Position numbers and translations under genes: made by a program. Positions 25,077 to 50,446 of a stretch of 64,000 nt of DNA are shown piece after piece. A model generated the notes under the pieces. It was not told the DNA's origin and made no database searches. It saw nothing but the letters and a program-made list of their open reading frames with translations. Numbering within the stretch: position 1 is the first letter of the stretch; each line of letters opens with the position of its first letter. Origin of the DNA: Oricola indica (GTDB taxonomy: Bacteria; Pseudomonadota; Alphaproteobacteria; Rhizobiales; Rhizobiaceae); contig NZ_JAINFJ010000005.1 in assembly GCF_019966595.1 (NCBI RefSeq), forward strand, positions 153,924-217,923. The letters are read 5' to 3'.

Positions 25077-26129
25077 CTAAAAGACGACCCCGTCCATCAA
25101 TTTGCGTGCCGTGCGCAACACGCCCGCCGAAACCAATTCGCCCTTGTCGTCCAGCGTCGCGACCACCGAGAACTCGCCGGTCGGGTGTTCCACCGAAAGC
25201 GTCTTCGGATTGCCGTCGGGAATCTTCGCGATCTTCGCCGCCGGCCCCGATTTCATCATGCAGGCCGTCCCGACGCTGACGGCGCCGAGCACGCCGATCG
25301 CCTTGTGGCAGCGATGCGGGATGAAGGTGCGCGTCGAGACGCAACCGCCATTCTTGGCCCGGCTGACCATCGTCATCTTCGGCACCGACTTTTCCTTGAC
25401 GTCGCCGAGATTCATCAGCGGGCCGCATTTCAGCCGGATCGCCTCGAGCTTGGCGCGCAATTCGTCGTTGGCCTCGAGTTCTTCCGGCGTCTCGTCGCCG
25501 GTGATGCCCATGTCTTCCGCCGACATAACCACGCAGGGCATGCCATTGTCGATCATCGTCACCTCGACACCCTCGACCGTGTCGCTCTCATTGCCCGTCG
25601 GCAGCAGCGCGCCGCAGGTCGAGCCCGCCGTATCCTCGAAGATGATCGGCTGCGGCGCGGATGTCCCGGGCACGCCGTCGATGCTGGCGTCGCCCTCGTA
25701 ATTCACCTTGCCGCCCGGCGTCGACACCGTGGCGATGGCAAGCTGGTCGGTGTTGACCATGAAGATGCGCACATCGGTCGTGCCGTCCTTGGCCTCGACC
25801 AGACCGCGCTCGATGGCGAAGGGGCCGACACCGGCGAGGATGTTGCCGCAGTTCTGCGAATCCGTGACGATCGGCTGGTCGACGAAGACCTGCAGGAACA
25901 GATAGTCGACATCTACCCCTTCCCGCTCGGACTTGTTCACCACCGCGATCTTCGATGTCAGCGGGTCGGACCCGCCCATGCCGTCGATCTGCCGCGGATC
26001 GGGCGAACCCATCACCCGCAGCAGAAAGGCGTCGCGCGCCGCCGTGTCGGCGGGCAGATTCTCGGCGAGGAAGTATCCTCCCTTCGAGGTTCCTCCCCGC
26101 ATCCACATGCAGCGCACACCGTCAGACAT
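25077..26129 (-). CDS. galD: 4-oxalomesaconate tautomerase (GalD/LigU-like, PrpF family)
   Basis: A 350-residue PrpF-family isomerase with the diaminopimelate-epimerase fold. It interconverts tautomers of 4-oxalomesaconate in the gallate/protocatechuate 4,5-cleavage lower pathway. Family segments are [13 protein letters not shown] at the N terminus, [15 protein letters not shown], and [20 protein letters not shown] with the catalytic-type Cys, mirrored by [19 protein letters not shown] in the second half. It overlaps the preceding aldolase gene by eight bases. GalD is preferred to the methylaconitate isomerase PrpF because of its neighbours. It is the last gene of this strand's catabolic block. 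Confidence 0.87.
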
Positions 26130-26814
26130 ATTTCAGGCCTTTTTCCTTGAGGCGCTCGCGCATCTTGTAGATGTCGAGCCCCAGCTCTCCGGCCTCGAAA
26201 CGCGCACGCTTCTCGGCCTCGTTCGCCTCGCGCGCCTGCGCCTTCTTCAGGACGTCGGCGGCTTCCTCTCGGCGCACCACGCAGACGCCGTCATCGTCGG
26301 CGACGATCACGTCGCCCGGATTGACCAGTTCGCCCGCGCAGACCACCGGCACGTTGACCGAGCCCAACGTCTCCTTGATCGTGCCTTGTGCGAAAACCGC
26401 CTTCGACCAGACCGGGAATTCCATCTCGGTCAGGTCGCGCGTGTCACGCACGCCGGCATCGATGATCAGGCCCTTGCAGCCACGCACTTTCGCCGAAGTC
26501 GCCAGCAGGTCGCCGAAATATCCGGCATCCGACGGCGATGTCGGCGCGAGGACGAGGATGTCGCCCGCCTTGATCTGCTCGATGGCGACATGGATCATCC
26601 AGTTGTCGCATGGCGGGGCGGAAATCGTCACCGCCGAGGCTGCGAGACGCGCGCCGGAATAGATCGGCCGCATATAGGCGGCGAGCAGGCCCTTGCGCCC
26701 CTGCGCCTCGTGGACCGTCGCCACGCCACATTCGCCGAGACCGTCGATCACCGCCTGGTCGGCGCGTTCGATGTTCTGGACGACGACGCCCTCTCCAACT
26801 GTCGAGCCCGCCAT
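26122..26814 (-). CDS. galC: 4-carboxy-4-hydroxy-2-oxoadipate aldolase (LigK/GalC-like, RraA fold)
   Basis: A 230-residue class II aldolase of the RraA-like family that splits 4-carboxy-4-hydroxy-2-oxoadipate into pyruvate and oxaloacetate, using a divalent metal. The motif [16 protein letters not shown] holds the G..RD signature where the metal and substrate bind, and [18 protein letters not shown] is the second family signature. It starts inside the galB stop (ATGA overlap) and overlaps galD, so the three are translationally coupled. RraA itself is excluded by the catalytic signature and context. Confidence 0.88.
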
Positions 26815-27545
26815 CAGAGTTCGTCCACGGTGCGCGGGAAGATCGACTGGAAGCCTTCGGCGTATTTGCAGTCGCGTCCGCCGGCCTGCCCGCCGGAATT
26901 GCGCTTGAAATGGTTGGCGCGGTTCTCGGCGACATTCTCGTAGAAATGCCACAGATGCTCCTGACCCTGCATGCACTGGATCGCGGCCCACTTCTTGTCC
27001 CAGACCTCGGTGATGTCGAGGAAGACGTCGGGCTTCCATTCCATCTGCTCGGTCTGGTGTGGCTCGAACAGATAAAGCTGCGGCGCGCCAAGCACCTTCT
27101 GGCCCGGATTGTGGCCCCAGGCCTGCGCGATCATGCGGCAGGTCAGTGCGAAGTCGGTCGTGTACATGTGGTCCGTATTGTACGGATCCCACTTGGAATG
27201 GCTCATCATGAAGGCCGGCTGCACGGCGCGGATGACATCGACCATGCGGTCCTGCGTCTCGCGGCCGAGATCCAGCGGATAATCGCCGACATCGAAGAAC
27301 TGGATGTCGTGGACGTCGAGCGCCTTGGCGGCATTCTCGGCTTCCTTGCGGCGCTCGGTCTTGACTGTCTCGAGCGTCATGCCTTCCTTTTTCCAGAGCT
27401 TGGCGCTTTCGCCGCGCTCGCCATAGGACAGGCAGACGACGGTGACGTCGTAGCCGCGTTTCTGGTGGAGTGCGATCGCGCCGCCGCAGCGCCAGACGAA
27501 GTCGGCGGAATGCGCGCTGATCACCAATGCTGTCTTGTTTGCCAT
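26814..27545 (-). CDS. galB: 4-oxalomesaconate hydratase (GalB-like, PIG-L/LmbE family)
   Basis: A 243-residue zinc-dependent enzyme of the PIG-L fold, which GalB of Pseudomonas putida uses to hydrate 4-oxalomesaconate. The metal motif appears as [15 protein letters not shown] (His 12 and Asp 15), and [15 protein letters not shown] holds the later Asp/His pair. The start has GGGAG upstream. It lies between the extradiol dioxygenase (16 bases upstream) and the aldolase (ATGA overlap), exactly the order of reactions. A deacetylase role is possible for the fold but unlikely here. Confidence 0.87.
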
Positions 27546-27561: not shown

Positions 27562-28527
27562 TTAAGTTTTGCCCGGAACGGGTGGCGTTCCGTGGGTGTG
27601 GAATGTCTCGATGGTCTTGAGGCCCCAGGCCTGACCCTTCTTTCGGTCGGTCTCTGTCCAGCAGACCGGTTCCCATTCGGGATCGAGGATAAGCCGCGCG
27701 CCGGCATTGGCCAGTTCGATGCGGTTGCCCGCCGGCTCCCAGACATAGAGGAAGAACGACCCCTGGATCGCATGTTTGTGCGGACCGGTCTCGATATGCA
27801 CGCCGTTTTCAAGGAAGATGTCGGCAGCGCGCAAAATATCCTCGCGCTGGTCGGTCGCATAGGTGACATGGTGCAGGCGCCCGGTGCCGCCGCCGCGCTC
27901 TTCAGAGCAAACGGTGTCGTAGGTCTTGTTGTTGCAGGAGAACCAGACACCGCCGAGCCGGCCATTGTCGAGCTGGATATATTCGGTCATCCGGCTGCCG
28001 AGGCAGGTCTTCATGAACTCTGCGAATGCACGTGCATCCTCGCCAAGCAGGTTCACATGGTCGATGCGGCGCGGGCTGACGCCCTGCGCATGGAAGCGGC
28101 TCGACAGGTTCTTCAAAGCCGAGGCATCCTCCGGTGGCGCGACATATTTCTTCGTGTCCCAATAGAGTTCGAACACATGGCCGAACGGGTCCTCGAACCG
28201 GTAGGCCTTGCCGCCATGGCCGAGATCGCCATCGACCCAGCCAATCGTCTTGTAGGGGCTTGCCTCTATCGCCGCGATTCGGCGTTCAAGCGCTTCCGGC
28301 GACGAGACGCGGTAAGCGACATGGCCGATACCCGTCGTGTCCGACTTGGTCAGCTTCATCGAATGGAATTCATAATCGTCCCAGGCGCGCAGATAGGCAG
28401 ACGTCCCATCGCGACCGCTTTCCTTCAAACCATAGACGCGTGTGAAGAAATCGAGGCTCTCCTCGAACTTGTCCGTGAACACTTCCACATGCCCGAGATG
28501 GGCGACGTCGTAACAAGGTTCGGTCAT
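27562..28527 (-). CDS. Type I extradiol ring-cleavage dioxygenase (catechol 2,3-dioxygenase-like)
   Basis: A two-domain VOC dioxygenase of 321 residues, the length of XylE-type enzymes. The iron ligands align with XylE as His 157 (RIDHVNLL), His 220 (RLHHVTYA) and Glu 271 (GNRIEL). The second-sphere His 252 and Tyr 261 are also kept. XylE His 199, an acid-base residue, aligns with Tyr 203 here (NKTYDTV). The gene precedes galB/C/D, so the expected substrate is protocatechuate, gallate or a related diol, although those are usually opened by the unrelated LigAB-type enzymes. Exact substrate and cleavage position are unproven. Confidence 0.83.
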   Translation of the reverse strand: MTEPCYDVAHLGHVEVFTDKFEESLDFFTRVYGLKESGRDGTSAYLRAWDDYEFHSMKLTKSDTTGIGHVAYRVSSPEALERRIAAIEASPYKTIGWVDGDLGHGGKAYRFEDPFGHVFELYWDTKKYVAPPEDASALKNLSSRFHAQGVSPRRIDHVNLLGEDARAFAEFMKTCLGSRMTEYIQLDNGRLGGVWFSCNNKTYDTVCSEERGGGTGRLHHVTYATDQREDILRAADIFLENGVHIETGPHKHAIQGSFFLYVWEPAGNRIELANAGARLILDPEWEPVCWTETDRKKGQAWGLKTIETFHTHGTPPVPGKT

Positions 28528-28713: not shown

Positions 28714-29595
28714 TCAGGCGCCCTTCTTGCGGGCCTTGAGAACCGTGTCGGCGATATCCGCCAGCCCACCGCCCTCCGGCACTATGCATCCGAGCTCGCC
28801 GATCTCGTCATGCAGCGCCGCGATCGCATCGGCCAGCGCGCCGCCATTGGCGAAACCCAGCTCGCGCATCGAATTGGCCGACTCGCGCATCTCGGCCGCG
28901 CGCCGTACGCCGTGCCGCATGATCCGCTCGAACTCGTACTCTCCGAAATCCGGCCAGCCGAGCATGTCGTAGGAGCCCGACAGCGACTTGTAGACCTCGT
29001 CGTAACAGCCCGCCTCTCTCGCTGCAGAGATCGCCTGCACGGTGATCGCTTCCAGCCCCTTCACGAAAAGCGAGCGGATCATCTTGATCGAGGTGGCCGC
29101 CCCCTCCTCCGCGCCGACGCTGCGCCATGCGAACGCAAAATCCGTCAGCGCGTGGGTAATATCGTCTTGCTGGTCGCCGGCAATCAGAACCGGCGTCTTG
29201 TGGCCGCGCGGATGCACTGGCGCCATCACCGCCATGTCGACGTAGCGCGCGCCCTTGCCCCGCACCAGCGCCGCCGTATCCTGCTTGCGCTTCGCGGAGA
29301 CCGAGTTGATGTCGAGATAGATTTGCTCGTCCGTCAGCCCGCCCTCGACAGACTGCGCGGCCTCGAGGCTCGACGCCGCCGTCACCGCGGCGATGATCCA
29401 GTCCGCGCCGGCAATCGCCGCGACCGGTCCGTCCGCAAGCGTCACGCCAAGATCTGCCGCTGCCGTTTCCACGTCGGCACCGGCCGGCGTGCCCTGCTTG
29501 ATGTCATAGGCGGAAAAGGTCTCGACGCCGCACTCCTTCAAGCTGGCCGTGAAGGCCCGTGCCGCCTCGCCGAATCCGATGAAGGCAATATGCAT
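28714..29595 (-). CDS. NAD(P)-dependent dehydrogenase with DUF1932 domain (6PGDH/beta-hydroxyacid dehydrogenase-like)
   Basis: The 293-residue protein opens with a Rossmann fold (MHIAFIGFGEAARAFTASL) and has the beta-hydroxyacid dehydrogenase helix with Lys in SIKMIRSLFVKGLEAI. DUF1932 occupies the C-terminal third. Its reaction is unknown. It lies 30 bases after rdhA and upstream of the dioxygenase, in a cluster that lacks recognisable LigC and LigI. It could oxidise the ring-cleavage semialdehyde or a side-chain hydroxyacid. The 186-base gap to the dioxygenase gene has no feature I recognise. Confidence 0.8.
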   Translation of the reverse strand: MHIAFIGFGEAARAFTASLKECGVETFSAYDIKQGTPAGADVETAAADLGVTLADGPVAAIAGADWIIAAVTAASSLEAAQSVEGGLTDEQIYLDINSVSAKRKQDTAALVRGKGARYVDMAVMAPVHPRGHKTPVLIAGDQQDDITHALTDFAFAWRSVGAEEGAATSIKMIRSLFVKGLEAITVQAISAAREAGCYDEVYKSLSGSYDMLGWPDFGEYEFERIMRHGVRRAAEMRESANSMRELGFANGGALADAIAALHDEIGELGCIVPEGGGLADIADTVLKARKKGA

Positions 29596-29625: not shown

Positions 29626-32600
29626 TTAAAGATCGATCTCGATTGTACCGCCGTCTTCCGCCGCGCGCGACTGGCAAAGGATGATGGCGCTCTCGCGCTG
29701 TTTCTTCGACAAGACGAAGTCGCGATGCTCCACATCGCCGGCAACGAGCCCGCATTTGCAGACGCCGCAAATGCCGTCGGAGCATTTCACGTCGATGTGG
29801 ATGCCGTTCTCGGCCAGCACGTCCGTCGCGGTCTTGTCTTCCGGCACAAGAAACTGGCGGCCTGACTGCGCCAGTTTCAGAGTGAAGGGATGGTTCTCCC
29901 ATTCCGGCAGCTCCGGCACCGAGAAATACTCGAGATGCCGCGCCTCCTCCGGGAAGCCCTGTCGCTCCGCCGCCTCGACGACGCCCTGCATGTAGCGGTC
30001 CGGCCCGCATGTATAGACATGCCAGCCGTCCTCATAGCCCGCGAGCACGTGATCGAGATTGGCGCGTGTCCCCTCGGCGGTCACATGGACATAGACCTTG
30101 TCGTGCCAGGGCACGTGAGCCAGATCGTCCAGATAGCCCGCCAGCTCGCGCGATTTGATCGAGTAATGCATGGCGAAATCCGCGCCGATCGCGTGCAGCC
30201 GGTGCGCCATCGCTATCATCGGCGTAATACCGATACCGCCCCCCATTAGGAAGGTGCGCTTTGCCGTCTCGTCGAGCGGGAAATGGTTGATCGGTCGCGA
30301 GATGAAGATCTTGCGACCCTCCGAGAAGATCCGGTGCATTAGTTTCGAGCCGCCGCGCCCCTCGTCCTCGCGCAGCACGCCGATCTGGTATTTCGACCGG
30401 TCCGCCGGATCGCCCGACATCGAATATTGCCGCAGGAATTCCGGCGCGACGACGATGTCGAGATGCGCGCCCGCCTCCCATGCCGGCAAGTCTGAGCCGT
30501 CGAGCGAACGGAACTCGTACTTCGTCACGTCGCCGCTCATCTTTTCGGCCTTGGACAAGACAACCCGCAGCACCGGGCTCTCTCCGGCCGCCGTGTAGCG
30601 ATGGACATGGCTTTCGTCGCCTCTGGCCAACCGCGCGCGATATTCCTCCGCGGTGATCATCGCCTGATAGGCCTCGATGCCCTTTTCCCGATCCATCGGG
30701 AACGGATAGGGCCAGGGATGCGGCGCGAGGTCGGCGGGATAGACGGCGAGCGTCTGATCCTCGTATTTCAGGTCAAGATCGCGCTGCAAGTCTCTGCGAT
30801 TTATAGGGTGTCTCGTCGGTCGGTACGCACCGTCATCCTCCAGCTCGATGTCCCACCACCATTTCTTGACGTCGTTCAGCCCGCCATTGCCCACCGCATC
30901 GTCGAGCTTCGCCAAGTAAGGCGCGGCTGACGGAATATTCGACGCCATCCAGCGGAACGGCGCTTCGGCGAACAGGCCTTCGAGGTTCCACGGGCAGGTC
31001 TTCATGCAGCGCCCGCACATCGCGCCGCCCTCGGTCGTGATACGGTACGTCGCGCATTTCTGGCTGTCCGACTTCCAGATCTCGTAGCCGTTGAACATCA
31101 GCTTCGGCCCCGCCGTGATCGCGCCGGACGGGCATTCGCGGGCGCATTTGTTGCAGCTCTCGCAAAAAGTCTGCAGGCCGAAGTCGATCGGCTTGTCATG
31201 CGCTACCGGCATGGTCGTGGTGACGACGCCTGACTTCAGCCGCGGCCCAAGATAGGGATTGAGGATCACCTCGCCGATCCGGCTGACTTCGCCAAGGCCA
31301 GACAGCAGGAGCAGCGGCGGTTGCAGCACCTCGCCGTCCATCACGGTATGCGCCTTGGCCGAATAACCGAGATTGCGGATCTGCTTGGCGATCACCCCGC
31401 CGAGCAGCGAGAAACGCAGATAGGCGCGCATCGACTGCGCCACCGAGATCCAGTCGTCGCCCGACGCGCCCTCCATGGTCTCGTAACCCTGATCGATGAT
31501 CATCGAGACCGCCTGGTCGTGCGGCGGTGTCAGTTCCGCGCCGGTCGCGTCATGCGAATACCAGGTCCAGTCCGGGCAGCGCGAAAGGCCGACCGCATCG
31601 ACGCCGAGGAAGTAGGTCGCCGCCTTGATGTTCTCGGCATTGCGCCGTGCGTCATGCGTCGATGCGGCGATCTCCGCCGCCGGCTCGCCGTCCTGCAGCA
31701 GCACGAATGCGCCCAGCACCCGGCGCTGGCCCATCGAGGGCGCGGCCTTGCGCGCATAATGGCCGCCCTTCGCCCCGTCCTGGCAGGCCTTGCCCATGTC
31801 TCCGAACTGGGCGCGCGCGAACATGTCGGTGCGTTTCGGCACCCGCGCCACGCGGTCCTCGTCGATATAGGTCGTCGGTTCGTCGACCCGCTTCAGCTTC
31901 TCGAAGGGATGCAAACCGTCGACGAAGCGCCGGTCGGCGAATGGCTCGCGGTTCAGTGCGTTCTTGGCGAAGCCCTTGCCCGTCCACCATGCCGGCCCCT
32001 TGGTGCGAAACCAGGGCTGTTCGGCCAATGGCGCGAGTGGCAGATCAGCGGCGATTTCCATTTCCGTGGTAATGGCAGCGACGCCGAAGCGGCTGCCCAC
32101 ATAAGGATTCGCCAGTTCTCCGTGTTCGACACTTGCGAGCCCAGCCGCCACGGCCAGCTTGTTGAGATCGACATCCGAGGATGTGCCCGTATGCGCCTTT
32201 GCGTCGAAACCTAGCAGACGGATATAGTTGGCGATAACGACCGCCGTTTCCGACGCCCTCAGGCAGGCGCGCTCCGCCTGCGCATCCATGATCCAGTCCG
32301 CGCCCGGCTCGTCCGGCTTCGGATCGCGCGGATATTCATAGAGGAATACGATGGCATGGCTGTGCCCGTTGATCGTCGTGGGCGGCGCCTCCATCGATTC
32401 CTTCAGATCGGCCATGATCATGTCGATGCCGGAGGCGAGCGTCTTGGTCTGCCGCGTTCTCAGATCGTGCTTCAGCCGGTCTATGGCCGGATTGCGGATC
32501 GGTTCTTCCAGCAGGTCGGAACGCGACAGCGCGCAAGCGCCGATCATCGACGCATCCGAGAAATAGCCGAAACCTTTCAGATGATTGGCCCGCTCGACGG

Positions 32601-32853
32601 GATCCGCCGGGATCTCCGCCCGCGCCTTGTTGACCAGACCGTCGCGAATGGCGTCCATCATGGCCTGGTATTCGCCCATGGCGTTGACGAGACTTTCCGG
32701 CTTGTCCGGTCTCTCGAAGGAAAGCCGCGTCATCGCGGGGATGGAAGCAGCATCGGGCCCCCGGTCCGTCCGGGCGAGGCGCTCAAGCGGATACGGACCC
32801 ATATGGACCGGGCGATCCCGGTCGGAGAAGAAACGAATGCCCATGCCTCCCAT
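29626..32853 (-). CDS. rdhA: Self-sufficient catabolic reductive dehalogenase (RdhA core fused to an FMN/NAD(P)H/[2Fe-2S] reductase)
   Basis: A 1075-residue cobalamin- and iron-sulfur-dependent enzyme that should remove halogen from an aromatic ring, probably ortho to a phenolic OH. Residues 1 to about 750 are the RdhA core. Cluster ligands are Cys 564, 567, 570, 574 (CESCNKCARECP) and Cys 600, 613, 616, 620. Tyr 478, Lys 540 and Arg 604 have exactly the spacing of Tyr 426, Lys 488 and Arg 552 reported for NpRdhA of Nitratireductor pacificus. Residues about 751-1075 form a phthalate-dioxygenase-reductase-like module: flavin motif RQYS (808), GGGIGITPM (871), CGPDRYM (949) and a plant-type [2Fe-2S] site with Cys 1024, 1029, 1032 and 1060. 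No Tat signal and no rdhB exist, so it is cytoplasmic and not respiratory. BhbA of Comamonas sp. 7D-2 has the same architecture. Confidence 0.95.
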   Translation of the reverse strand: MGGMGIRFFSDRDRPVHMGPYPLERLARTDRGPDAASIPAMTRLSFERPDKPESLVNAMGEYQAMMDAIRDGLVNKARAEIPADPVERANHLKGFGYFSDASMIGACALSRSDLLEEPIRNPAIDRLKHDLRTRQTKTLASGIDMIMADLKESMEAPPTTINGHSHAIVFLYEYPRDPKPDEPGADWIMDAQAERACLRASETAVVIANYIRLLGFDAKAHTGTSSDVDLNKLAVAAGLASVEHGELANPYVGSRFGVAAITTEMEIAADLPLAPLAEQPWFRTKGPAWWTGKGFAKNALNREPFADRRFVDGLHPFEKLKRVDEPTTYIDEDRVARVPKRTDMFARAQFGDMGKACQDGAKGGHYARKAAPSMGQRRVLGAFVLLQDGEPAAEIAASTHDARRNAENIKAATYFLGVDAVGLSRCPDWTWYSHDATGAELTPPHDQAVSMIIDQGYETMEGASGDDWISVAQSMRAYLRFSLLGGVIAKQIRNLGYSAKAHTVMDGEVLQPPLLLLSGLGEVSRIGEVILNPYLGPRLKSGVVTTTMPVAHDKPIDFGLQTFCESCNKCARECPSGAITAGPKLMFNGYEIWKSDSQKCATYRITTEGGAMCGRCMKTCPWNLEGLFAEAPFRWMASNIPSAAPYLAKLDDAVGNGGLNDVKKWWWDIELEDDGAYRPTRHPINRRDLQRDLDLKYEDQTLAVYPADLAPHPWPYPFPMDREKGIEAYQAMITAEEYRARLARGDESHVHRYTAAGESPVLRVVLSKAEKMSGDVTKYEFRSLDGSDLPAWEAGAHLDIVVAPEFLRQYSMSGDPADRSKYQIGVLREDEGRGGSKLMHRIFSEGRKIFISRPINHFPLDETAKRTFLMGGGIGITPMIAMAHRLHAIGADFAMHYSIKSRELAGYLDDLAHVPWHDKVYVHVTAEGTRANLDHVLAGYEDGWHVYTCGPDRYMQGVVEAAERQGFPEEARHLEYFSVPELPEWENHPFTLKLAQSGRQFLVPEDKTATDVLAENGIHIDVKCSDGICGVCKCGLVAGDVEHRDFVLSKKQRESAIILCQSRAAEDGGTIEIDL

Positions 32854-32956: not shown

Positions 32957-33718
32957 CTATTTCGGGGCCATACGGATCGCTCCGTCGAGACGAATAACCT
33001 CGCCATTCAGATAAGGGTTCTCGATTGCAAACCGGACGAGACTGGCAAATTCCTCCGGCTTTCCGAGGCGCGACGGATAGGGAATCGATGCGCCGAGGCT
33101 CTGCTGGATCTCTTCGGGCATGCCCTGCAGAAGCGGTGTCAGGAAGATACCCGGCGCGATCGTGTTGACGCGGACCCCGAAGCGGGCAAGCTCGCGCGCG
33201 ATGGGCAGCGCCATCGAAACGATACCACCCTTCGACGCCGAGTAGGCCGCCTGCCCGATCTGGCCGTCGAATGCCGCCACAGAGGCGGTGTTGACGATGA
33301 TGCCACGCTCATTGTCGTCCAGCGGCTCCTGCACGGACATGCGGGCAGCCGCGACGCGAAGCATGTTGAACGTGCCGATCAGGTTGACCCGGATGACGTT
33401 CTCGAACTCGCCGAGCGGTTGCGGCCCTTCGCGCCCGACGACACGCCCGGCGGTTCCGATCCCGGCACAGTTCACGAGAATCCGAATATCGCCGGCGGTC
33501 TCCACGGCGGCATCGACCGCCCTGTCGGCGTCCTGCTCGCTCGTAACGTCACCGGCGACGGCAATACCGCCAATTTCGGCGGCTGCTTTCGAAGCGGCGT
33601 CGGCATTGCGGTCGAACACCACCACCTTGGCGCCAGACTCGGCGAGCATTCCTGCCACGGCGCGTCCCAGACCGGACGCCCCACCCGTTACGATTGCCCC
33701 TGCACCTTCCAGCTTCAT
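32957..33718 (-). CDS. Short-chain dehydrogenase, 3-hydroxyacyl-CoA dehydrogenase type II-like
   Basis: A 253-residue SDR with TGGASGLGRA (NAD binding), NCAGIG, and the catalytic Ser/Tyr/Lys in NTASVAAFDGQIGQAAYSASK. The sequence resembles type II 3-hydroxyacyl-CoA dehydrogenases (HSD10-like), including VNTIAPGIFLTPLL. Its ATG overlaps the stop of the CoA synthetase (ATGA). With the divergent enoyl-CoA hydratase it would oxidise the 3-hydroxyacyl-CoA made from a hydroxycinnamoyl-CoA to the beta-keto thioester. Confidence 0.88.
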   Translation of the reverse strand: MKLEGAGAIVTGGASGLGRAVAGMLAESGAKVVVFDRNADAASKAAAEIGGIAVAGDVTSEQDADRAVDAAVETAGDIRILVNCAGIGTAGRVVGREGPQPLGEFENVIRVNLIGTFNMLRVAAARMSVQEPLDDNERGIIVNTASVAAFDGQIGQAAYSASKGGIVSMALPIARELARFGVRVNTIAPGIFLTPLLQGMPEEIQQSLGASIPYPSRLGKPEEFASLVRFAIENPYLNGEVIRLDGAIRMAPK

Positions 33719-35574
33719 ACCGCCTCCCTGAGTTTACGGATCAGCATGACCCGCCTGTCGTGATTGTTGTAAAGCGCTTCGGCCAGGTCGTCGCGATTGC
33801 GCAGAACCGCGCGCTGGTTGAGCGATCCCTTGTCGGTCACCTCGCCGGCGTCGAAAGACAGTTCATCTTCGAGGAATATCGCGCGCACGACACGCGTCGC
33901 CGAACCGGTGGATTTTGCCGCGTGCGCATCGAGCAGTTCCTCCATGCGCTTATGCACGTTCTCGTGCGCGAGGACCCTGGTGTCGGTCATTTCATCGCCA
34001 CCCGGCACCAAGGCCCGAAGTTTCGGCATGAAGGGAATCAGGATCGCGCCGAGTTCGTCACGGTTCTCACCAACAAGCACGACATCGCGAACAAGCCCGC
34101 CGAACTGGTCCACCAGCTTGGCGCGCAAGGCCCCAACGGCAACCCACGTGCCCGTTCGCAGTTTGAAATTCTCGGTAATCCGGCCGTCGAAGTAGAAGCC
34201 CTTCGATGCATCGCCCGGGACGGCGAAGCGCAGGGCATCTCCAAGCTGGTAGAAGCCCTCTTCGTCGAAAGCCTCGGCGGTCAGTTTCGGGTTGCGCCAG
34301 TAGCCGGGCGTCACATTCGGCCCCTTGATGCGAACCTCGAGCTTGTCGTCATGCGGAAGCAGTTTCAGGACGACACCCTGCGACGGAACGCCGACATTAC
34401 CGGCGATTTCCTGCTCTTCCATGCACATCAGCGCAAAGGGCGCCGTCTCCGTCGCGCCGAGTCCGGTGCCCAGGAATACGCGATGGCCGGTCGTCTGAGC
34501 CGCAAGATCGTTCAGGCGATCCCACGTGTGCTGTCCCATCGCGGCAGCGGCATACATCATCATGCGCAGCTTCTTGAAGAAACTCTCGCGAAGGACATCG
34601 TCCTTCTCCATCGCATTGACGAGCAGTTCGTATCCGGCCGGCACATTGAAATACCACGTCGGCGAGACTTCCCGCAGATTGCGGATCGTGATTTTCATGC
34701 CTTCGCGCGAGGGCTTGCCGTGATCGATATAGAACGTCCCGCCAGTGAAGATCATCAGGTTGAAGACCTTGTTGCCGCTGGCGACATGGCTCCACGGCGC
34801 CCAGTCGACGACCACCGGCGGCTCTTCTTGCATAAAGGCGTAGCAGTCGGTCACCATCGCAATGTTCGAGCACAGCATACGATGGGTGGTGATGACCGCC
34901 TTGGGCGAACCGGTCGTGCCTGAGGTGAAGAGAAATTTCGCGACCGTATCCGGCCCGACCGTGGCGTGGGCCTGATCCACTTCCGGTCCCGGCACTGTCT
35001 CCAGAACATCATCGAAAAGGAAGCAGTCGCGTCCGCCGATCGGCTCGGTTACGACGACCGCCTCGACTTCCGGCCCGAACACCATGTCGATGGCGCGATG
35101 ATAGGCCGATCCGTCCTGCGCGAAGACCATTCCCGGCGTCAGCTGGCCGGCGATGTCGCGCAGCTTGGCGCAGTCTTCCGAGATGAGGGAGTAGGCCGTC
35201 GAGACGGCAGCAGAGGGAATGCCCACATGCTGCGCGCCAAGCGCCATCAGCGCGTGCTCGATCGAGTTGTGAGACAGGATCAGCAACGGCTTTTCGGCGG
35301 AAAGCTTGTTTTCGAGAAGGAATGCGGAAATCGCCCGCACCTTTTTCAGCGCCTCGCCATAGGTGACCTTGCGCCAGTCCCCGGCCCCGTCGCGCTCGGC
35401 CATCCAGACGCGGTCAGGCGCGGTCTCCGCCCAGTAGACAAGACGTTCCGTTACCCGATCCGGATATTGCCCGAGCTCATCCTTTCGGCTGACGATCCAG
35501 GTACCATCGTCGCGTTTCTCGGTAACGATTTCCGGGGACCAGACAGCGATCTCTCGCAATGGAGCAGCGGACAT
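33715..35574 (-). CDS. fcs: Feruloyl/p-coumaroyl-CoA synthetase (ANL superfamily)
   Basis: A 619-residue adenylate-forming ligase that activates a hydroxycinnamate with ATP and CoA. GGGAGGA precedes MSAAPLREIAVW and fixes the start. It has the P-loop LFTSGTTGSPKAVITTH and FLGTGLGATETAPFAL. The later part FYFDGRITENFKLRTGTWV is typical of feruloyl-CoA synthases, which lack the common GRxKD form. It is the first gene of the minus-strand block, divergent from the enoyl-CoA hydratase, and overlaps the SDR. Substrate breadth, and any tolerance of ring halogens, cannot be read from sequence. Confidence 0.9.
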   Translation of the reverse strand: MSAAPLREIAVWSPEIVTEKRDDGTWIVSRKDELGQYPDRVTERLVYWAETAPDRVWMAERDGAGDWRKVTYGEALKKVRAISAFLLENKLSAEKPLLILSHNSIEHALMALGAQHVGIPSAAVSTAYSLISEDCAKLRDIAGQLTPGMVFAQDGSAYHRAIDMVFGPEVEAVVVTEPIGGRDCFLFDDVLETVPGPEVDQAHATVGPDTVAKFLFTSGTTGSPKAVITTHRMLCSNIAMVTDCYAFMQEEPPVVVDWAPWSHVASGNKVFNLMIFTGGTFYIDHGKPSREGMKITIRNLREVSPTWYFNVPAGYELLVNAMEKDDVLRESFFKKLRMMMYAAAAMGQHTWDRLNDLAAQTTGHRVFLGTGLGATETAPFALMCMEEQEIAGNVGVPSQGVVLKLLPHDDKLEVRIKGPNVTPGYWRNPKLTAEAFDEEGFYQLGDALRFAVPGDASKGFYFDGRITENFKLRTGTWVAVGALRAKLVDQFGGLVRDVVLVGENRDELGAILIPFMPKLRALVPGGDEMTDTRVLAHENVHKRMEELLDAHAAKSTGSATRVVRAIFLEDELSFDAGEVTDKGSLNQRAVLRNRDDLAEALYNNHDRRVMLIRKLREAV

Positions 35575-35726
35575 TAGTTCCTCCCAAAATGCCCATGAAT
35601 TCAGCTTGACCGCGGACGGCCATTGACGCAATGGTCGGTGTTCGTATATTTCAAAACATTATCCTAGTAAACAATTTCAAGTGCACATATAACCAATAAG
35701 GCCGAATGGCCGTGGCGGGAGGACTA
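35575..35726. promoter_or_regulatory. AT-rich divergent promoter region with candidate MarR site
   Basis: This gap separates the minus-strand CoA synthetase from the plus-strand hydratase operon. It is much richer in A and T than its surroundings. Two TTTCAA elements (35649-35654 and 35675-35680) flank ATCCTA (35661-35666), and an imperfect palindrome is centred there. The MarR gene at 36523 is the likely ligand-responsive repressor. The same TTTCAA/ATCCTA elements recur at 52816-52836. Confidence 0.45.
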
Positions 35727-36521
35727 ATGGAAAAGGCGGTTCAAGACGGTTTCGTCACCTACGAGCTCGACGGCGATGTCGCGCTTATCGGCCTGAACAG
35801 GCCCAACAAGCGCAATGCGATCAGCGACTCCTTTGTCGAAGCTATCGCCGATGTCGTCATGCGGGCAGAAGATGAAGCCAAAGCCGGCGTCATTTACGGC
35901 CATGGCGATCATTTCTGCGCCGGGCTGGACCTCGCCGAACACGTCAAGAAATCTCCGGTGGAAGGTGTGCGCGGCTCACGCCGCTGGCACGCGGTCTTCG
36001 GCATGATCGAGCATGGCGCCATTCCGTGGGTCGCGGCGCTGCATGGCGCTGTGGTCGGCGGCGGCCTGGAGCTCGCCTCATCGACCCATATCCGCGTCGC
36101 CGACGAAAGCGCATTCTTCGCCCTTCCCGAAGGCCAGCGAGGCATCTTTGTCGGTGGCGGCGGTTCGGTTCGAGCCGCGCGCCTGATGGGCGCCGCCCGC
36201 ATGACCGACATGATGCTGACCGGCCGGGTTGCAAGCGCAGAGGAGGCCGAACGCTGGAACCTTGTCCAGTATCGCGTCGGGCGCGGTGACGCCAAAGCCA
36301 AGGCGCTCGAACTGGCGCATTCGGCCGCCGGAAACGCGGAGCTGTCCAATTTCGCCGTCATTCACGCCCTGCCCCGTATCCAGGACATGGCCAAAGAGGA
36401 CGGCTTGTTCGTCGAGTCGCTAATGGCATCCTTTACGGCGACCAGTCCGGAAGCCGAGGAGCGGTTGCGTGCCTTCCTCGAGAAACGCGCCAAGCGGCTG
36501 AATATCCCGGGAAGCCAGTGA
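35727..36521 (+). CDS. Enoyl-CoA hydratase (crotonase family)
   Basis: A 264-residue crotonase expected to hydrate the side-chain double bond of a hydroxycinnamoyl-CoA. I start at MEKAVQDGFVTYEL because GGGAGGA lies just upstream. The oxyanion-hole segments GDHFCAGLDLAEH and LHGAVVGGGLELASSTHIRV are present, as is LPEGQRGIFVGGGGSV with a catalytic-type Glu. It could alternatively be a hydratase-lyase yielding an aldehyde, but no vanillin-type aldehyde dehydrogenase is nearby, while an SDR and a hydrolase are. It overlaps nothing and precedes marR by one base. Confidence 0.87.
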   Translation: MEKAVQDGFVTYELDGDVALIGLNRPNKRNAISDSFVEAIADVVMRAEDEAKAGVIYGHGDHFCAGLDLAEHVKKSPVEGVRGSRRWHAVFGMIEHGAIPWVAALHGAVVGGGLELASSTHIRVADESAFFALPEGQRGIFVGGGGSVRAARLMGAARMTDMMLTGRVASAEEAERWNLVQYRVGRGDAKAKALELAHSAAGNAELSNFAVIHALPRIQDMAKEDGLFVESLMASFTATSPEAEERLRAFLEKRAKRLNIPGSQ

Positions 36522-36522: not shown

Positions 36523-37005
36523 ATGGCGCCCTTGGCCTTGAACCAGCAGATGAGCGAAGACGAGGTCGACATGCAGGATCTTGGTGACTCGATCGGCTTC
36601 CTCACCCGCCTCGCGCAGGTCAAGACATACGAGACCTTCTTCGAGGACCTCGGCGCACACGGATTGCGGCCCGGAGAATATTCCACAGTCCTCCTGATCG
36701 GCCGCAATCCGGGCATCCGGCAGGGCATGGTCGCCCAGAAGCTGCGGATCAAGCCGGCACACATGACCAAGCTGATCCGCGCCCTCGAGGATCGTGGGCT
36801 CGTGGACCGGACAATACCCGATCACGACCGCAGGTCGGTCGAGTTGACCCTGACGCAGACGGGCCGTCAGTTCGTCGAAGAGCATCGTTTGTCCTTCGCC
36901 CGGCACGAGACGAGACTGAACAAAGCCCTGACGCCGGACGAACTACGCTCGCTCAAACGGCTTCTACGCAAATATGTCGATTTCGACGGGGAGGAAACGG
37001 CGTGA
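36523..37005 (+). CDS. MarR-family transcriptional regulator
   Basis: A 160-residue winged-helix regulator with the recognition region GMVAQKLRIKPAHMTKLIRA and the wing LVDRTIPDHDRRSVELTLT. Such regulators of hydroxycinnamate genes (CouR, FerR) usually repress until the CoA thioester binds. It is encoded inside the operon it probably controls, with a GTGA overlap into the amidohydrolase gene. The predicted operator is in 35575-35726. Confidence 0.88.
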   Translation: MAPLALNQQMSEDEVDMQDLGDSIGFLTRLAQVKTYETFFEDLGAHGLRPGEYSTVLLIGRNPGIRQGMVAQKLRIKPAHMTKLIRALEDRGLVDRTIPDHDRRSVELTLTQTGRQFVEEHRLSFARHETRLNKALTPDELRSLKRLLRKYVDFDGEETA

Positions 37006-37877
37006 ATTTCGACGCACTCAAGGCATTCGACATCCACACACATGCCGAGGAGCCGTGCTGCGGCCCGCGTGACGATGGCTACGATGAGTTCCAGTCCGGC
37101 ATGGCCTCCTACTTCAAGAACCCGGCCGGCCGCGATGGCATGCTGCCGAGCGTGCAGGACACCGCCGCATATTATCGCGAACGCAATATTGGCTGCGTGA
37201 TCTTTCCCGTGGACGCCGAGCGCGAGACCGGGTTCCGCCGCTATTCGAACGAGGAAGTCGCGGGCATCGCCGCCGAGAATTCGGATATCATGATCCCCTT
37301 CGCATCGATCGATCCGGCCAAGGGAAAAGCCGGCGCGCGGGAAGCGCGGCGACTCGTGCGCGACTTTGGCGTGCGCGGCTTCAAATTCCATCCGACCATG
37401 CAGGGCTTCTATCCCAATGAGCGCTGGGCCTATCCGCTTTACGAGGCCATCGCCGAGGAAGGCGCGATCATGCTGTTCCACACCGGCCAGACAGGTGTCG
37501 GTTCCGGCATGCGCGGTGGCATGGGAATGCGGCTGAAATTCTCCAACCCGATGTATATCGACGACGTCGCGGTGGATTTCCCGGACACTCCGATCATTCT
37601 GGCTCACCCGTCCTTTCCATGGACAGAGGAAGGGCTCGCCGTCGCCCAGCATAAGCCGAATGTCTATTTCGACATGTCCGGCTGGTCGCCGAAATACTTT
37701 CCGCCGATTTTCGTTCACTATGCCAATACGATCCTGAAGAAGAAGATGCTCTTCGGTTCGGACTGGCCTGCTATCACGCCAGATCGCTGGCTCAGCGATT
37801 TCGAGAAGATCGGGATCAGGGATGAGGTGCGTCCCCTGATTCTGAAAGAGAACGCGAGGAGATTGCTCGCGCTCTGA
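37002..37877 (+). CDS. Amidohydrolase-2 family protein, putative 4-hydroxyphenyl-beta-ketoacyl-CoA hydrolase
   Basis: A 291-residue TIM-barrel metal hydrolase. FDIHTHAEE (His 12 and His 14) gives the first metal ligands, LAHPSFPW a later His, and LFGSDWP the terminal Asp. A related protein is proposed in the p-coumarate pathway of Aromatoleum aromaticum to split the beta-ketoacyl-CoA hydrolytically into 4-hydroxybenzoate and acetyl-CoA, in place of a thiolase. No thiolase is present in this cluster, which supports that role. It begins with GTG overlapping the marR stop. ACMSD-type decarboxylation is an alternative. Confidence 0.75.
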   Translation: MNFDALKAFDIHTHAEEPCCGPRDDGYDEFQSGMASYFKNPAGRDGMLPSVQDTAAYYRERNIGCVIFPVDAERETGFRRYSNEEVAGIAAENSDIMIPFASIDPAKGKAGAREARRLVRDFGVRGFKFHPTMQGFYPNERWAYPLYEAIAEEGAIMLFHTGQTGVGSGMRGGMGMRLKFSNPMYIDDVAVDFPDTPIILAHPSFPWTEEGLAVAQHKPNVYFDMSGWSPKYFPPIFVHYANTILKKKMLFGSDWPAITPDRWLSDFEKIGIRDEVRPLILKENARRLLAL

Positions 37878-37903: not shown

Positions 37904-39028
37904 ATGAAGAAACTGCTCGCAGCATTCCTGGCCGCTTCGGCCATCGCGCTCGGCGGCACCAGTATGGCGGACGCACGCGAACTGCGTATCGCGCCGGCCG
38001 CTCCGCCGCCGCATCCGGCGAACGGTGTCATGTACACCAATTTCGCGAAATACCTTCCGGAGGAATCCGACGGCCGCCTCACCGCGACCATGCTCGGACC
38101 GGAAGTGGTCAATCTTGGCCAGATGAAGGACGCCCTGCAGTCGCAGATCGCGGAAGTCGGCAACCTGTTGCCGCTCTACTTCCCGGCCGACCTGCCGATG
38201 ATGTCGGTCACGGGCCAATTGTCGCTGACCGGCACAAACTCGCAGGCGATGGGCGCGGCCCTCACCGAATTCGTGGTCAACTGCACCCCCTGCCAGGAAG
38301 AGATGAAGAGCCTGAACTTCGTCTTTCTCGGCTCGGGCGCTTCGGACGTCTACGAATTCCTGACCACCAAGCCTATCCACAACGCCGATGATCTCAAAGG
38401 CCTTCGCCTTCGGTCCGGCGGCGCGCCCTGGGCGCGTTTCGCGGAGCATTTCGGTGCGACGCCGGTTCAGATGTCCGTCTTTGACCAGTTCGAGGCGATG
38501 AACTCCGGCACGATCGACGGCACGATGGCATCCATCGCCGACATGCTGTCCTTCCGCCTCGTCGAAGTGGCCAAATATGTCACTTACGCGCCGCTCGGCC
38601 TCTACTTCTCGACGTCGAACTTCACCGTCTCCAAGGCAACCTGGGACGAGCTTTCGACAGAGGATCGCGCGGCCATGGTGCGGGCGGCGAACCGCGCCAA
38701 TGCGGACTTCACCAACCGCTGGGGATCCACGATGCCTGGCGAGGCCGAAGCCGCATCGCGGGAAGCCGGCGTCGAGTTCATCGAGGCCGATCCCGAGTTC
38801 GTCGAAGAGATCGAGCAGTTCATCCAGGATGACATCGAGACTGCCGGAACCTACTCGCAGGAGCAGTTCGGCATCGAGGATGCGCCGGATCAGATCCAGC
38901 AGTTCCTCGCGCTCGTCGAGAAGTGGACGGCCATCGCGGAAGAGGAAAACAACGACCCGGTCGCCATGTCCAAGCGCGTCTATGACGAGGTCTGGTCCAA
39001 GGTCGATTACGCCACTTACGGCCAGTAA
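37904..39028 (+). CDS. dctP: TRAP transporter substrate-binding protein (DctP family)
   Basis: A 374-residue periplasmic solute receptor. A Sec signal peptide (MKKLLAAFLAASAIALGGTS, cleavage near ADA-RE) is followed by the mature domain. GLRLRSGGAPWARFAEHFGA carries the Arg that typically clamps a carboxylate, followed by FDQFEAMNSGTIDG. GGGAGGAA precedes the ATG. Together with the membrane genes downstream it would import an aromatic carboxylate, by analogy with the hydroxycinnamate TRAP system TarPQM of Rhodopseudomonas palustris. Confidence 0.92.
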   Translation: MKKLLAAFLAASAIALGGTSMADARELRIAPAAPPPHPANGVMYTNFAKYLPEESDGRLTATMLGPEVVNLGQMKDALQSQIAEVGNLLPLYFPADLPMMSVTGQLSLTGTNSQAMGAALTEFVVNCTPCQEEMKSLNFVFLGSGASDVYEFLTTKPIHNADDLKGLRLRSGGAPWARFAEHFGATPVQMSVFDQFEAMNSGTIDGTMASIADMLSFRLVEVAKYVTYAPLGLYFSTSNFTVSKATWDELSTEDRAAMVRAANRANADFTNRWGSTMPGEAEAASREAGVEFIEADPEFVEEIEQFIQDDIETAGTYSQEQFGIEDAPDQIQQFLALVEKWTAIAEEENNDPVAMSKRVYDEVWSKVDYATYGQ

Positions 39029-39102
39029 GGCACGACAGATCGCCGGGAGCTCAGGCTCCCGGCGGCACAGTTGCACTGAAACCGGTTCTTTCGAGGAAAC
39101 CC

Positions 39103-39597
39103 ATGCGCCTGCTTTCCCGCGTGCAGGACGGTCTCTTGGCGCTGCTTGCGCTGATCGGCGCGCTCGCCGTCATCGCGCTGATGTTGCATGTCGTCACGGA
39201 TGTCGCGATGCGCAACCTGACCAACACGCCTATTCCTGCAACATATGAGATCGTGACCCATTACTACATGATCTCCCTCGCCTTCATCCCGCTCGCCTGG
39301 GTGGAACGCGGCGGCGGCATGGTGCAGGTCGAGGTGATCGAACCTTTTCTGGGACCTCGTGCGCTTTCCTGGTCCGACCGGCTCGTGGCGCTGATTTCCA
39401 CAGTGATCTACGGGGCGCTGGCGTGGTTTACCTGGCTCACCGCACTCAAGAATTTCGATACCGGCGTCTTCGTGATGGCCCAGAACATTCCGGTCGCCAC
39501 CTGGCCGGCCTATTTCCTTCTGCCGCTCGGCTTCTTCCTCGCCGCCCTGACAACGGCGATCCGCATGTTCCAGCCAACACGTGAGGTCGAGCAATGA
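39103..39597 (+). CDS. dctQ: TRAP transporter small membrane subunit (DctQ family)
   Basis: A 164-residue inner-membrane protein with about four hydrophobic helices (LLALLALIGALAVIALMLHV, THYYMISLAFIPLAWV, IYGALAWFTWLTAL, PAYFLLPLGFFLAALTTAI). The ERGG segment after helix two is common in DctQ. It lies 74 bases after dctP and overlaps dctM by four bases (ATGA). Confidence 0.92.
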   Translation: MRLLSRVQDGLLALLALIGALAVIALMLHVVTDVAMRNLTNTPIPATYEIVTHYYMISLAFIPLAWVERGGGMVQVEVIEPFLGPRALSWSDRLVALISTVIYGALAWFTWLTALKNFDTGVFVMAQNIPVATWPAYFLLPLGFFLAALTTAIRMFQPTREVEQ

Positions 39598-40898
39598 GCG
39601 TCGCCACCGGCTTTGCGGGTGTATTCCTGCTTTTCGTTCTGTTGGCGCTGCGTGTCCCGGTCGCGCTGGCGCTCATCGCCGTCCCCGTCGCCGGCATCGC
39701 CTGGTTGATTGGCTGGGCGCCGGCGATCGGCATCCTGTCGTCGACGCCGTTTTCCTTCGTGGCCAACTGGACGTTGTCGGCCGTGCCGATGTTCCTGCTG
39801 ATGGGCTTCATCGCGTTCCACACCGGCCTGACCGGCGGCCTGTTCGACGCGGCGAAAGCCGTTCTGCGCCGCATACCGGGCGCCCTCGCCATATCATCGA
39901 TTTTCGCCTGCTCCGGCTTTGCGGCCGTCTGCGGCTCGTCGCTGGCGACAGCTGCCGCGATGGGGCGGATCGCGATCCCCGAAATGGTGAAATCGGGCTA
40001 TGCGCCGAGCTTCGCCGCAGGCTCGATCGCGGCGGGCGGAACGATCGGGGCGCTGATCCCGCCTTCGATCCTGATGATCGTCTACGGCGTCTTCGCCGAA
40101 ACGTCGGTGACACAGGTTTTCCTCGGCGGCATCACTATCGGACTCCTGACCGCGATCGCCTATTCGATCGTCGTTCTGCTGACATGCTGGTTGCGGCCGG
40201 ACATTGCCCCGCCGAAACCGCTTGATGCCGAGGGGATCGACACCAAGAGCGCGATCCTGAACATCTGGCCCGTGCTGCTCCTCATGGTAATCGTCTTCGG
40301 CGGCCTGTTCTCCGGCGTCTTCACCGCGACCGAAGCAGGCGCGGTCGGCGCCATCGGCTCGATCCTCATCTCGGTGGCAACCCGCCGGCTGACCTGGGAC
40401 GTCTTCAAGACCTCGATGATCGAAACGCTGATGACCTCGTCGTCGCTGTTCATCATCGGCGTGGGCGCGTCCATGTTCACGCGCTTCCTCGGGCTGACCG
40501 GACTGACCGGATTCATCTCGGCGACGGTGAACGGCGCCGACCTCGGTTATGTCGAGCTGATGTTCATCGTGGTCATGCTTTATCTCGTGCTCGGCATGTT
40601 CATGGAGCCGTTCGGCGCGATGCTCGTGACGCTTCCGGTCCTGCTGCCGATCTTCAAGACACAGGGCATAGACCTGGTCTGGTTCGGCGTCCTGTGTGTG
40701 AAACTGCTTGAGATCGGCATGATCACGCCGCCGGTCGGGCTCAACGTCTTCGTCATACGAAACGTGGCGAGCCAATACGCCACGGTCGTGCAGATATTCA
40801 AAGGCGTGATTCCGTTCCTGCTGGTCGATCTGCTGGTCGTCGCGATCGTGATCGCGCTGCCGCAGATCGTGCTCTACCTGCCATCCCTGATGAAGTGA
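39594..40898 (+). CDS. dctM: TRAP transporter large membrane subunit (DctM family)
   Basis: A 434-residue sodium-coupled membrane carrier of the TRAP system. Family segments include SAVPMFLLMGFIAFHTG, CSGFAAVCGSSLATAAAMG, IAAGGTIGALIPPSILMIVYG and EPFGAMLVTLPVLLPIF. The last gene of the plus-strand block, it ends 20 bases before the terminator at 40911-40952. Confidence 0.94.
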   Translation: MSVATGFAGVFLLFVLLALRVPVALALIAVPVAGIAWLIGWAPAIGILSSTPFSFVANWTLSAVPMFLLMGFIAFHTGLTGGLFDAAKAVLRRIPGALAISSIFACSGFAAVCGSSLATAAAMGRIAIPEMVKSGYAPSFAAGSIAAGGTIGALIPPSILMIVYGVFAETSVTQVFLGGITIGLLTAIAYSIVVLLTCWLRPDIAPPKPLDAEGIDTKSAILNIWPVLLLMVIVFGGLFSGVFTATEAGAVGAIGSILISVATRRLTWDVFKTSMIETLMTSSSLFIIGVGASMFTRFLGLTGLTGFISATVNGADLGYVELMFIVVMLYLVLGMFMEPFGAMLVTLPVLLPIFKTQGIDLVWFGVLCVKLLEIGMITPPVGLNVFVIRNVASQYATVVQIFKGVIPFLLVDLLVVAIVIALPQIVLYLPSLMK

Positions 40899-42143: not shown

Positions 42144-42192
42144 GAAAAATCCTCCACATGGACGAAAATATCACCGAACACATTGACCGGAA

Positions 42193-42206
42193 TGGACGGC
42201 AGTCCA
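42193..42206. promoter_or_regulatory. Inverted repeat in the pobA / araC divergent promoter
   Basis: TGGAC and GTCCA flank four bases, within the 84-base gap between the divergent start codons. A third TGGAC lies near 42157, so spaced half-sites for the AraC regulator are plausible. Confidence 0.4.
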
Positions 42207-42227
42207 GAATACTTGTACAAATCGAAC

Positions 42228-45555: not shown

Positions 45556-45584
45556 GTTCGCTTTCCAATCAGATAATATAAGGG

Positions 45585-47204: not shown

Positions 47205-47205
47205 C

Positions 47206-49178: not shown

Positions 49179-49182
49179 CGGA

Positions 49183-50444: not shown

Positions 50445-50446
50445 GC

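Follow-up and report, generated by a model that had tools for sequence, protein, structure and literature searches.

A 64,000-nucleotide stretch of the Oricola indica genome (contig NZ_JAINFJ010000005.1, positions 153,924 to 217,923; here called the window) carries a gene, rdhA, whose product is very likely to dehalogenate ortho-halophenols, driven by its own reductase. We also regard it as probable that this protein, RdhA, is a cytoplasmic, cobalamin-dependent, self-sufficient catabolic reductive dehalogenase. Its most likely role is to debrominate or deiodinate 3-halo-4-hydroxybenzoate-type acids for PobA and ring cleavage, with halogenated hydroxycinnamates perhaps the source. The direct support for this reading comes from domain order, motifs, catalytic residues, phylogeny, and gene context. 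The chemistry, the preference for bromine and iodine, and the oxygen tolerance are inferred by analogy with the enzymes NpRdhA and JtRdhA, and the use of NAD(P)H would follow from the fused reductase and from JtRdhA as presented in the available text of PMC10463259.

rdhA occupies window positions 29626 to 32853 as one uninterrupted frame on the minus strand, a strand that the earlier note on this DNA had left unstated; the plus strand over this interval holds stops. Counted from the first ATG (32853), the protein has 1075 amino acids, as stated in that note, which proposed one protein joining an RdhA core to a reductase. The fusion was confirmed, but the length probably has to be shortened: because four congeners share the sequence only from codon 4 onward (32844; TTG in loci L006 and L153, GTG in L007, and ATG in L008), the real protein is probably 1072 amino acids long and the gene 29626 to 32844. 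The reductive dehalogenase model TIGR02486 scored 199 bits on RdhA against a curated cut-off of 160.35. The reductive dehalogenase (RDH) model matched the frame twice, scoring 40.6 bits on the N-terminal half and 160.5 bits on the second half, which shows a vestigial internal duplication of the cobalamin domain like that of the catabolic RdhAs in the portion of PMC10463259 available. In phmmer searches of the PDB, the best match was NpRdhA (4ras, 542 bits), aligned over both halves, and residues 758 to 1065 matched phthalate dioxygenase reductase (PDOR; 2pia, 192 bits). The core carries two [4Fe-4S] motifs, CESCNKCAREC (564) and CGRCMKTC (613), and residues C564, C567, C570, C574, C600, C613, C616, and C620 are invariant across 28 aligned sequences. 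The reductase part has a Fer2 domain match, a [2Fe-2S] motif (CSDGICGVC, 1024), and flavin/NAD(P)H motifs (GGGIGITP, 871; RQYS, 808). An AlphaFold model of RdhA (mean pLDDT [predicted local distance difference test score], 64) serves as loose support only; with it, Foldseek returned NpRdhA chains in rows 1 to 14, followed by two self-sufficient P450s and 2pia.

A respiratory RdhA was considered and rejected. No RR pair of a twin-arginine translocation (Tat) motif was found within RdhA residues 1 to 60, and the gaps to the flanking genes are 30 bp downstream and 103 bp upstream, so there is no room for an adjacent rdhB. The absence of a Tat signal and an RdhB anchor claimed in the earlier note is therefore borne out. 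As a contrast case, locus L121 encodes a 492-amino-acid protein carrying RRNFMK. The Pfam profile PF13486 was silent in the host genome; because it was equally silent in all 14 control genomes, this silence is uninformative, and TIGR02486 is the informative model. A 16-base palindrome upstream of rdhA (32863 to 32878) was dropped as a candidate operator, as it is not kept in the four congeners, and the number of terminator-like sites in the palindrome scan was close to the shuffled mean.

The residues reported for catalysis in NpRdhA (available text of PMC7565698 and PMC10463259) have counterparts in RdhA. NpRdhA Y426, K488, R552, S422, M423, and F291 correspond to RdhA Y478, K540, R604, S474, M475, and F345, and each of these six is invariant in all 121 fused rows of the alignment (114 distinct sequences, including one row of the window's own gene). 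At the positions of K540 and R604, the host's own QueG (L147) has F and L, and L120, L121, and L133 have R and W, M or W.

The cobalamin/[4Fe-4S] core is common to RdhA and QueG, which is the one point in favor of reading RdhA as QueG-like or as some other class III cobalamin protein that does not dehalogenate. We consider that alternative barely credible. The QueG model TIGR00276 gave 22.8 bits on RdhA against a cut-off of 200, whereas a separate, true QueG in the host genome reached 442.5 bits. Branches were very long in a first tree of 57 rows (55 hand-picked from 133 extracted cores, plus the window and NpRdhA), and the QueG-like rows were drawn within an open fork of the fused rows. The seven QueG-like rows, of which the host's own was the one tested against the QueG model, formed their own clade with 100/100 support; the branch leading to it has length 10, and the point where it attaches should not be trusted. 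Together with the low model score and the absence of K540 and R604 from the host's QueG, this clade led us to reject RdhA as a QueG. A second tree of 46 cores omitted 11 rows (L115, which has the same sequence as L092; L120, L121, and L133; and the seven QueG-like rows). In it, the 44 fused rows split from the two unfused ones, NpRdhA and L134, with 100/100 support. RdhA paired with the Oricola locus L007 (98/80) inside a six-row set (95/98), and BhbA shared a branch with Nitratireductor OM-1 (97/84). By its sequence, then, RdhA belongs with the fused catabolic RdhAs and not with QueG; a placement of the core among queuosine reductases, which the earlier note had named as counting against its reading, was not found.

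Among known enzymes, BhbA of Comamonas sp. 7D-2 (plasmid pBHB) has the same architecture, with 51% identity over the full length, and likewise has protocatechuate 4,5-dioxygenase and PobA-like genes nearby. It differs from RdhA in its separate tree branch and its pocket residues, and it resides on a herbicide-degradation plasmid, whereas rdhA lies in a hydroxycinnamate island. JtRdhA of Jhaorihella thermophila resembles RdhA by description in the available text of PMC10463259: no Tat signal, a duplicated core, two [4Fe-4S] clusters, a fused PDOR with [2Fe-2S], and the same catalytic residues. According to that text, JtRdhA accepts brominated and iodinated substrates and is inhibited by chlorinated analogues, and the single fused enzyme termed studied in detail there takes bromine and iodine, not chlorine. 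No description of the JtRdhA gene neighborhood was found in the main text of the paper. NpRdhA of Nitratireductor pacificus (4ras, 6zxu, 6zxx, and 6zy1) is like RdhA in its core, vestigial duplication, and catalytic residues but has no reductase module and falls on the unfused branch; it is reported to work on chlorinated substrates too (PMC7565698, available in part). The Roseobacter short RdhA Ros_A3X954 shares with RdhA the lack of a Tat signal, is marine, and debrominates a phenol (PMC13101508, as far as its available text goes). With its short chain and the motif CDICTKCADACP, it fits the 416-amino-acid proteins of the L133 type, which have no reductase, and not RdhA. As a separate observation, L133:934-2184 (+) and its kin encode RdhA-like proteins of about 400 amino acids that lack both the duplication and the reductase; they occur in Rhodobacteraceae-like and Rhizobiaceae genomes. 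The L133 motif is identical to the one in Ros_A3X954, which was described as a debrominase in 2026 (PMC13101508).

The earlier note had described this fused architecture as known for very few enzymes. That part of its interpretation did not hold. Supported, on the other hand, was its reading of the protein as a catabolic RdhA of the BhbA/JtRdhA type that is self-sufficient, has no Tat signal, and is encoded in an aromatic-acid cluster. In a GTDB scan, the best 80 of 495 relatives all matched RdhA over nearly its full length, with 74 to 90% identity. Residues 1 to 718 found matches at E ≤ 1e-20 in 28 of 199 genomes of a family sample; 23 of these 28 have open frames of at least 1029 amino acids, i.e., fused length, including one with an in-frame TGA in which fusion was judged by frame length. 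This last copy, in L100 (G216), is a pseudogene or an assembly error. In a phylum sample, 13 of 299 genomes exceeded the TIGR02486 cut-off, 12 of them with frames of at least 1061 amino acids (the family and phylum counts both take in the window's own genome). A tblastn search of a plasmid collection found 8 records that cover at least 80% of the RdhA query; full-length identity was 51% for BhbA, as given above, and 74% for Ruegeria TM1040. Putative bhbA homologues are also described as widespread in the Roseobacter clade (available text of PMC13101508). Judged by these sequences, Alphaproteobacteria commonly carry the fused gene type, and the names or sources of many carriers are marine. Few fused enzymes have been assayed (BhbA and JtRdhA), though the architecture is not rare.

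The neighbors of rdhA (Table 1) point to a p-hydroxycinnamate/4-hydroxybenzoate route. Downstream of rdhA, the DUF1932, VOC, GalB-like, LigK, and LigU genes are co-oriented, with gaps of at most 186 bp. On the other side, the window holds homologues of every member of a hydroxycinnamate cassette: coenzyme A (CoA) ligase, hydratase, dehydrogenase, beta-ketoacyl-CoA hydrolase, and a CouR-like MarR regulator. With the cassette, PobA, and GalB/LigK/LigU on the rdhA island, the aromatic-degradation cluster of the earlier note was upheld. The same kinds of genes make up CouLMNOR of Rhodococcus jostii RHA1, a CoA-dependent beta-oxidative route in which the amidohydrolase CouO releases the aromatic acid and the MarR regulator CouR answers to p-coumaroyl-CoA (available text of PMC4737184). 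That text mentions no RdhA, and direct sequence comparison with the window covers the CouR-family structures only.

Table 1. rdhA and neighboring features in the window (window coordinates)
Feature	Position	Strand	Remark
rdhA, predicted self-sufficient catabolic reductive dehalogenase	29626..32844	-	First ATG 32853, conserved start 32844
LigU, 4-oxalomesaconate tautomerase	25077..26129	-	Over cut-off
LigK, 4-carboxy-4-hydroxy-2-oxoadipate aldolase	26122..26814	-	Over cut-off; start by eye
GalB-like PIG-L protein, 4-oxalomesaconate hydratase candidate	26814..27545	-	Genome's only match at E ≤ 1e-40
VOC-type extradiol dioxygenase	27562..28527	-	Catechol 2,3-dioxygenase model 300 bits, below cut-off of 320
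DUF1932 NAD(P)-binding dehydrogenase-like	28714..29595	-	30 bp downstream of rdhA
SDR dehydrogenase, 3-hydroxyacyl-CoA dehydrogenase candidate of hydroxycinnamate cassette	32957..33718	-	
Feruloyl/coumaroyl-CoA synthetase-like CoA ligase	33715..35631	-	Start uncertain
Enoyl-CoA hydratase, hydroxycinnamate cassette	35706..36521	+	
MarR regulator	36523..37005	+	Best PDB match CouR (6c28)
Amidohydrolase	37002..37877	+	83% identical to annotated 4-hydroxyphenyl-beta-ketoacyl-CoA hydrolase
TRAP transporter DctP-DctQ-DctM	37904..40898	+	
PobA, 4-hydroxybenzoate 3-monooxygenase	40971..42143	-	TIGR02360 686.5 bits, cut-off 538.7
AraC-family regulator divergent from pobA	42171..43109	+	Approximate start

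A similar gene set is carried by a plasmid of Rhizobium sp. Q54, with TRAP, hydrolase, MarR, hydratase, feruloyl-CoA synthase, SDR, LigU, LigK, VOC, and PIG-L genes and, in the same stretch, a DUF1932-like gene (38%). The window cassette is 52 to 83% identical to this set, which is annotated with feruloyl-CoA synthase and 4-hydroxyphenyl-beta-ketoacyl-CoA hydrolase, and in the plasmid an acyl-CoA dehydrogenase and about 5 kb of other genes separate the two halves of the set. No rdhA is annotated in that stretch, and none of the 8 full-length RdhA records comes from this plasmid. The amidohydrolase was also weighed as LigI. This identity is disfavored because of its similarity to the annotated ketoacyl-CoA hydrolase and because, in a search of the window and five loci, LigI of Nitratireductor OM-1 matched another host contig (L150, 66%) and not the window. 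On that other contig, LigA and LigB (over their cut-offs) lie together with LigI-like (66%) and LigC-like (42%) genes, and a second LigAB pair is present.

The VOC dioxygenase possibly cleaves gallate or protocatechuate. A similar VOC and GalB/LigK/LigU-like cassette adjoins tannase in Agrobacterium pAt, which suggests gallate as the substrate; the gene may encode a gallate dioxygenase of the VOC type, distinct from those of the LigB type. No LigAB is annotated beside the VOC cassette in the plasmid stretches viewed, and the VOC gene is missing from the congener G004. The DUF1932 gene adjoins rdhA in Oricola, as does a 37% identical counterpart in Nitratireductor OM-1; the two closest plasmid relatives of its product are located in tricarballylate gene sets. 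Elsewhere in the window, positions 43955 to 52804 (-) hold kynureninase (TIGR01814, over cut-off), CoA ligase, acyl-CoA dehydrogenase, enoyl-CoA hydratase, and SDR genes and a monooxygenase/old-yellow-enzyme fusion (NF006101, 1290 bits). By gene content, this set looks like an aerobic aminobenzoyl-CoA- or salicylyl-CoA-type pathway fed by kynurenine. A sulfur transport gene (PF04143) lies at 21593 to 22723 (+).

We examined how regularly rdhA keeps this company. Five genomes of the genus examined, the window's included, bear rdhA, and in every one of them orthologues of the CoA ligase, GalB, and PobA lie together with rdhA in a stretch of about 15 to 23 kb (identities in the other four, 81 to 85%, 91 to 99%, and 91 to 93%, respectively), and all five keep the co-oriented block RdhA-DUF1932-(VOC)-GalB-LigK-LigU. 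Three of these congener genomes, G003, G005, and G001, were matched by identical coordinates to the three best loci of the GTDB scan, L006 (Ahrensia sp. SAT55), L007 (Oricola sp. HH_bin22), and L008 (Oricola nitratireducens), respectively; O. nitratireducens NBU1457 has an 88% orthologue of RdhA. The rdhA-less congener G002 yielded no CoA ligase (E ≤ 1e-60), no GalB (E ≤ 1e-40), and a 58% PobA only. The downstream block is steadier than the upstream link to the SDR gene. Outside the genus, four loci (L059, L074, L078, and L079) have a co-oriented pobA (55 to 59% identical to PobA) that begins less than 100 bp beyond rdhA; L074 and L078, the two of these four that were scanned, are both above the PobA equivalog cut-off. 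This adjacency in four other alphaproteobacterial loci constitutes independent support, in a form simpler than the Oricola island, as judged from the sequences. In pBHB and Nitratireductor OM-1, pobA is about 4 kb or less from rdhA. Across L001 to L085, 11 loci (L001, L005 to L008, L018, L047, L059, L074, L078, and L079) have PobA or GalB/LigK/LigU matches, and CoA ligase, SDR, and DUF1932 genes of at least 60% identity are limited to L006, L007, and L008. A Ruegeria-rich group of 22 to 25 loci with common flanks has LysR, molybdopterin-dehydrogenase-type, and FAD oxidoreductase neighbors. The phenolic-acid company of rdhA is thus repeated, yet not general.

In the mechanism that we propose, modelled on JtRdhA (PMC10463259, PMC7565698), NAD(P)H would reduce the flavin in the C-terminal PDOR-like module, and electrons would pass from the flavin to the [2Fe-2S] cluster, then to the two [4Fe-4S] clusters, and on to cobalt. 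The cobalt would be coordinated by the halogen ortho to the phenol hydroxyl, and Tyr478, with Lys540 and Arg604, would give the proton as the halide leaves. The gene context suggests that the product would be a 4-hydroxybenzoate-type acid, which PobA would hydroxylate to protocatechuate. Protocatechuate would in turn be broken down by LigAB and the LigC/LigI-like proteins encoded on the other contig together with LigU, GalB, and LigK encoded beside rdhA. Halogenated hydroxycinnamates could enter through the CoA ligase/hydratase/dehydrogenase/ketoacyl-CoA hydrolase cassette of the same island. If homology is taken at its word, a route from hydroxycinnamate or 4-hydroxybenzoate to central metabolism can be written. 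The host genome holds one RdhA, one QueG, and CobN; the presence of CobN, the sole gene looked for, suggests that the host can probably make cobalamin by the aerobic route. That the substrates of RdhA drain through PobA is, in our judgment, reasonably likely; we raised this from a somewhat weaker expectation because pobA directly follows rdhA in the four loci named above. That halo-hydroxycinnamates are the real substrate source is a tentative proposal. Natural substrates do exist: 3-bromo- and 3,5-dibromo-4-hydroxybenzoic acids are listed for the alga Leathesia nana, and p-coumaric acid is listed for seawater and seagrass (PMC7601137). In the one literature search aimed at them, halogenated hydroxycinnamates as such did not turn up.

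Several findings weigh against the favored reading as a whole. Six of the 12 pocket positions examined are unlike both NpRdhA and BhbA: RdhA has M344, A361, Y366, A367, V471, and V504, where NpRdhA has F, K, F, P, A, and N and BhbA has F, S, S, V, S, and A. The RdhA residues are the commonest at these positions among the 121 fused rows (M in 110, A in 110, Y in 119, A in 65, V in 116, and V in 119), and the pocket is therefore of the common type and not the BhbA type. The best substrate of RdhA may differ from that of the BhbA type, and given the six differences, 3,5-dibromo-4-hydroxybenzoate is not to be assumed as the natural substrate. The AlphaFold confidence in the Fe-S region of RdhA is also poor. 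As for linkage, the island is partly a matter of shared descent, and the comparison with an rdhA-less relative depends on a single genome, G002. The rdhA-SDR adjacency (103 bp) is peculiar to the window; in the congeners, the two genes are about 2 to 8 kb apart, with other genes between them (among these, genes for a dihydroxy-acid dehydratase, a SpoIIE/cNMP protein, a GntR/FCD regulator, or an aldehyde dehydrogenase), so a shared rdhA-hydroxycinnamate operon is only weakly held. Lastly, 74 of the 85 loci, in stretches of 6 to 27 kb, lack a PobA, GalB, LigK, or LigU match, and among the 11 positives, L047 has a 30% LigK-like match alone.

This last count, with fused rdhA occurring in many genomes in very different surroundings, also favors the view that RdhA is a general detoxifier of diverse environmental bromo- and iodophenols (e.g., 2,4,6-trihalophenols) and that its neighbors are coincidental. 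JtRdhA is likewise active on 2-iodophenol, 2,4,6-triiodophenol, and tetrabromobisphenol A (TBBPA) in the available text of PMC10463259. We nevertheless regard this alternative as unlikely given the block kept in all five Oricola genomes, the lack of orthologues of the island's CoA ligase, GalB, and PobA in the rdhA-less congener, and the position of pobA, which comes immediately behind rdhA in another four loci and lies close to it in pBHB and Nitratireductor OM-1. It is also conceivable that halogen is lost mainly through an oxygenase route, by PobA and ring cleavage with halide loss, and that RdhA acts on another substrate. PobA and extradiol genes are present on the island, and Pigmentiphaga kullae H8 degrades 3-bromo-4-hydroxybenzoate with phbh/pcaAB clusters (PMC12016517, as far as available). 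We hold this route to be improbable, however: it leaves the conserved co-location of rdhA unexplained, and BhbA, in a comparable cluster (L001), is reported for the reductive step to 4-hydroxybenzoate in the available text of PMC13101508.

Taken together, these results favor a catabolic RdhA that feeds PobA, of an enzyme type that has already been described; its co-location with a hydroxycinnamate island looks to be the mainly new part. Our searches of the open-licence literature found no report of an rdhA-hydroxycinnamate gene combination or of an Oricola dehalogenase. The co-location sharpens the substrate hypothesis without making the system new in kind. A more ambitious proposal, which we consider doubtful, is that an aerobic pathway in Oricola is dedicated to halogenated hydroxycinnamates and 4-hydroxybenzoates that occur naturally in the sea, in which RdhA was inserted into a rhizobial p-hydroxycinnamate/ring-cleavage island and NADPH-driven dehalogenation would serve as a growth step under a CouR-like, hydroxycinnamoyl-CoA-sensing repressor. 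Self-sufficient RdhAs are workable, oxygen-tolerant dehalogenases. The position of rdhA on a conserved island, together with a phenolic-acid route that looks complete, makes for a concrete and testable substrate prediction, with O. nitratireducens NBU1457 as a named strain. The fused gene recurs in alphaproteobacterial genomes, many of which are marine, and so may play a part in the cycling of bromine in the sea.

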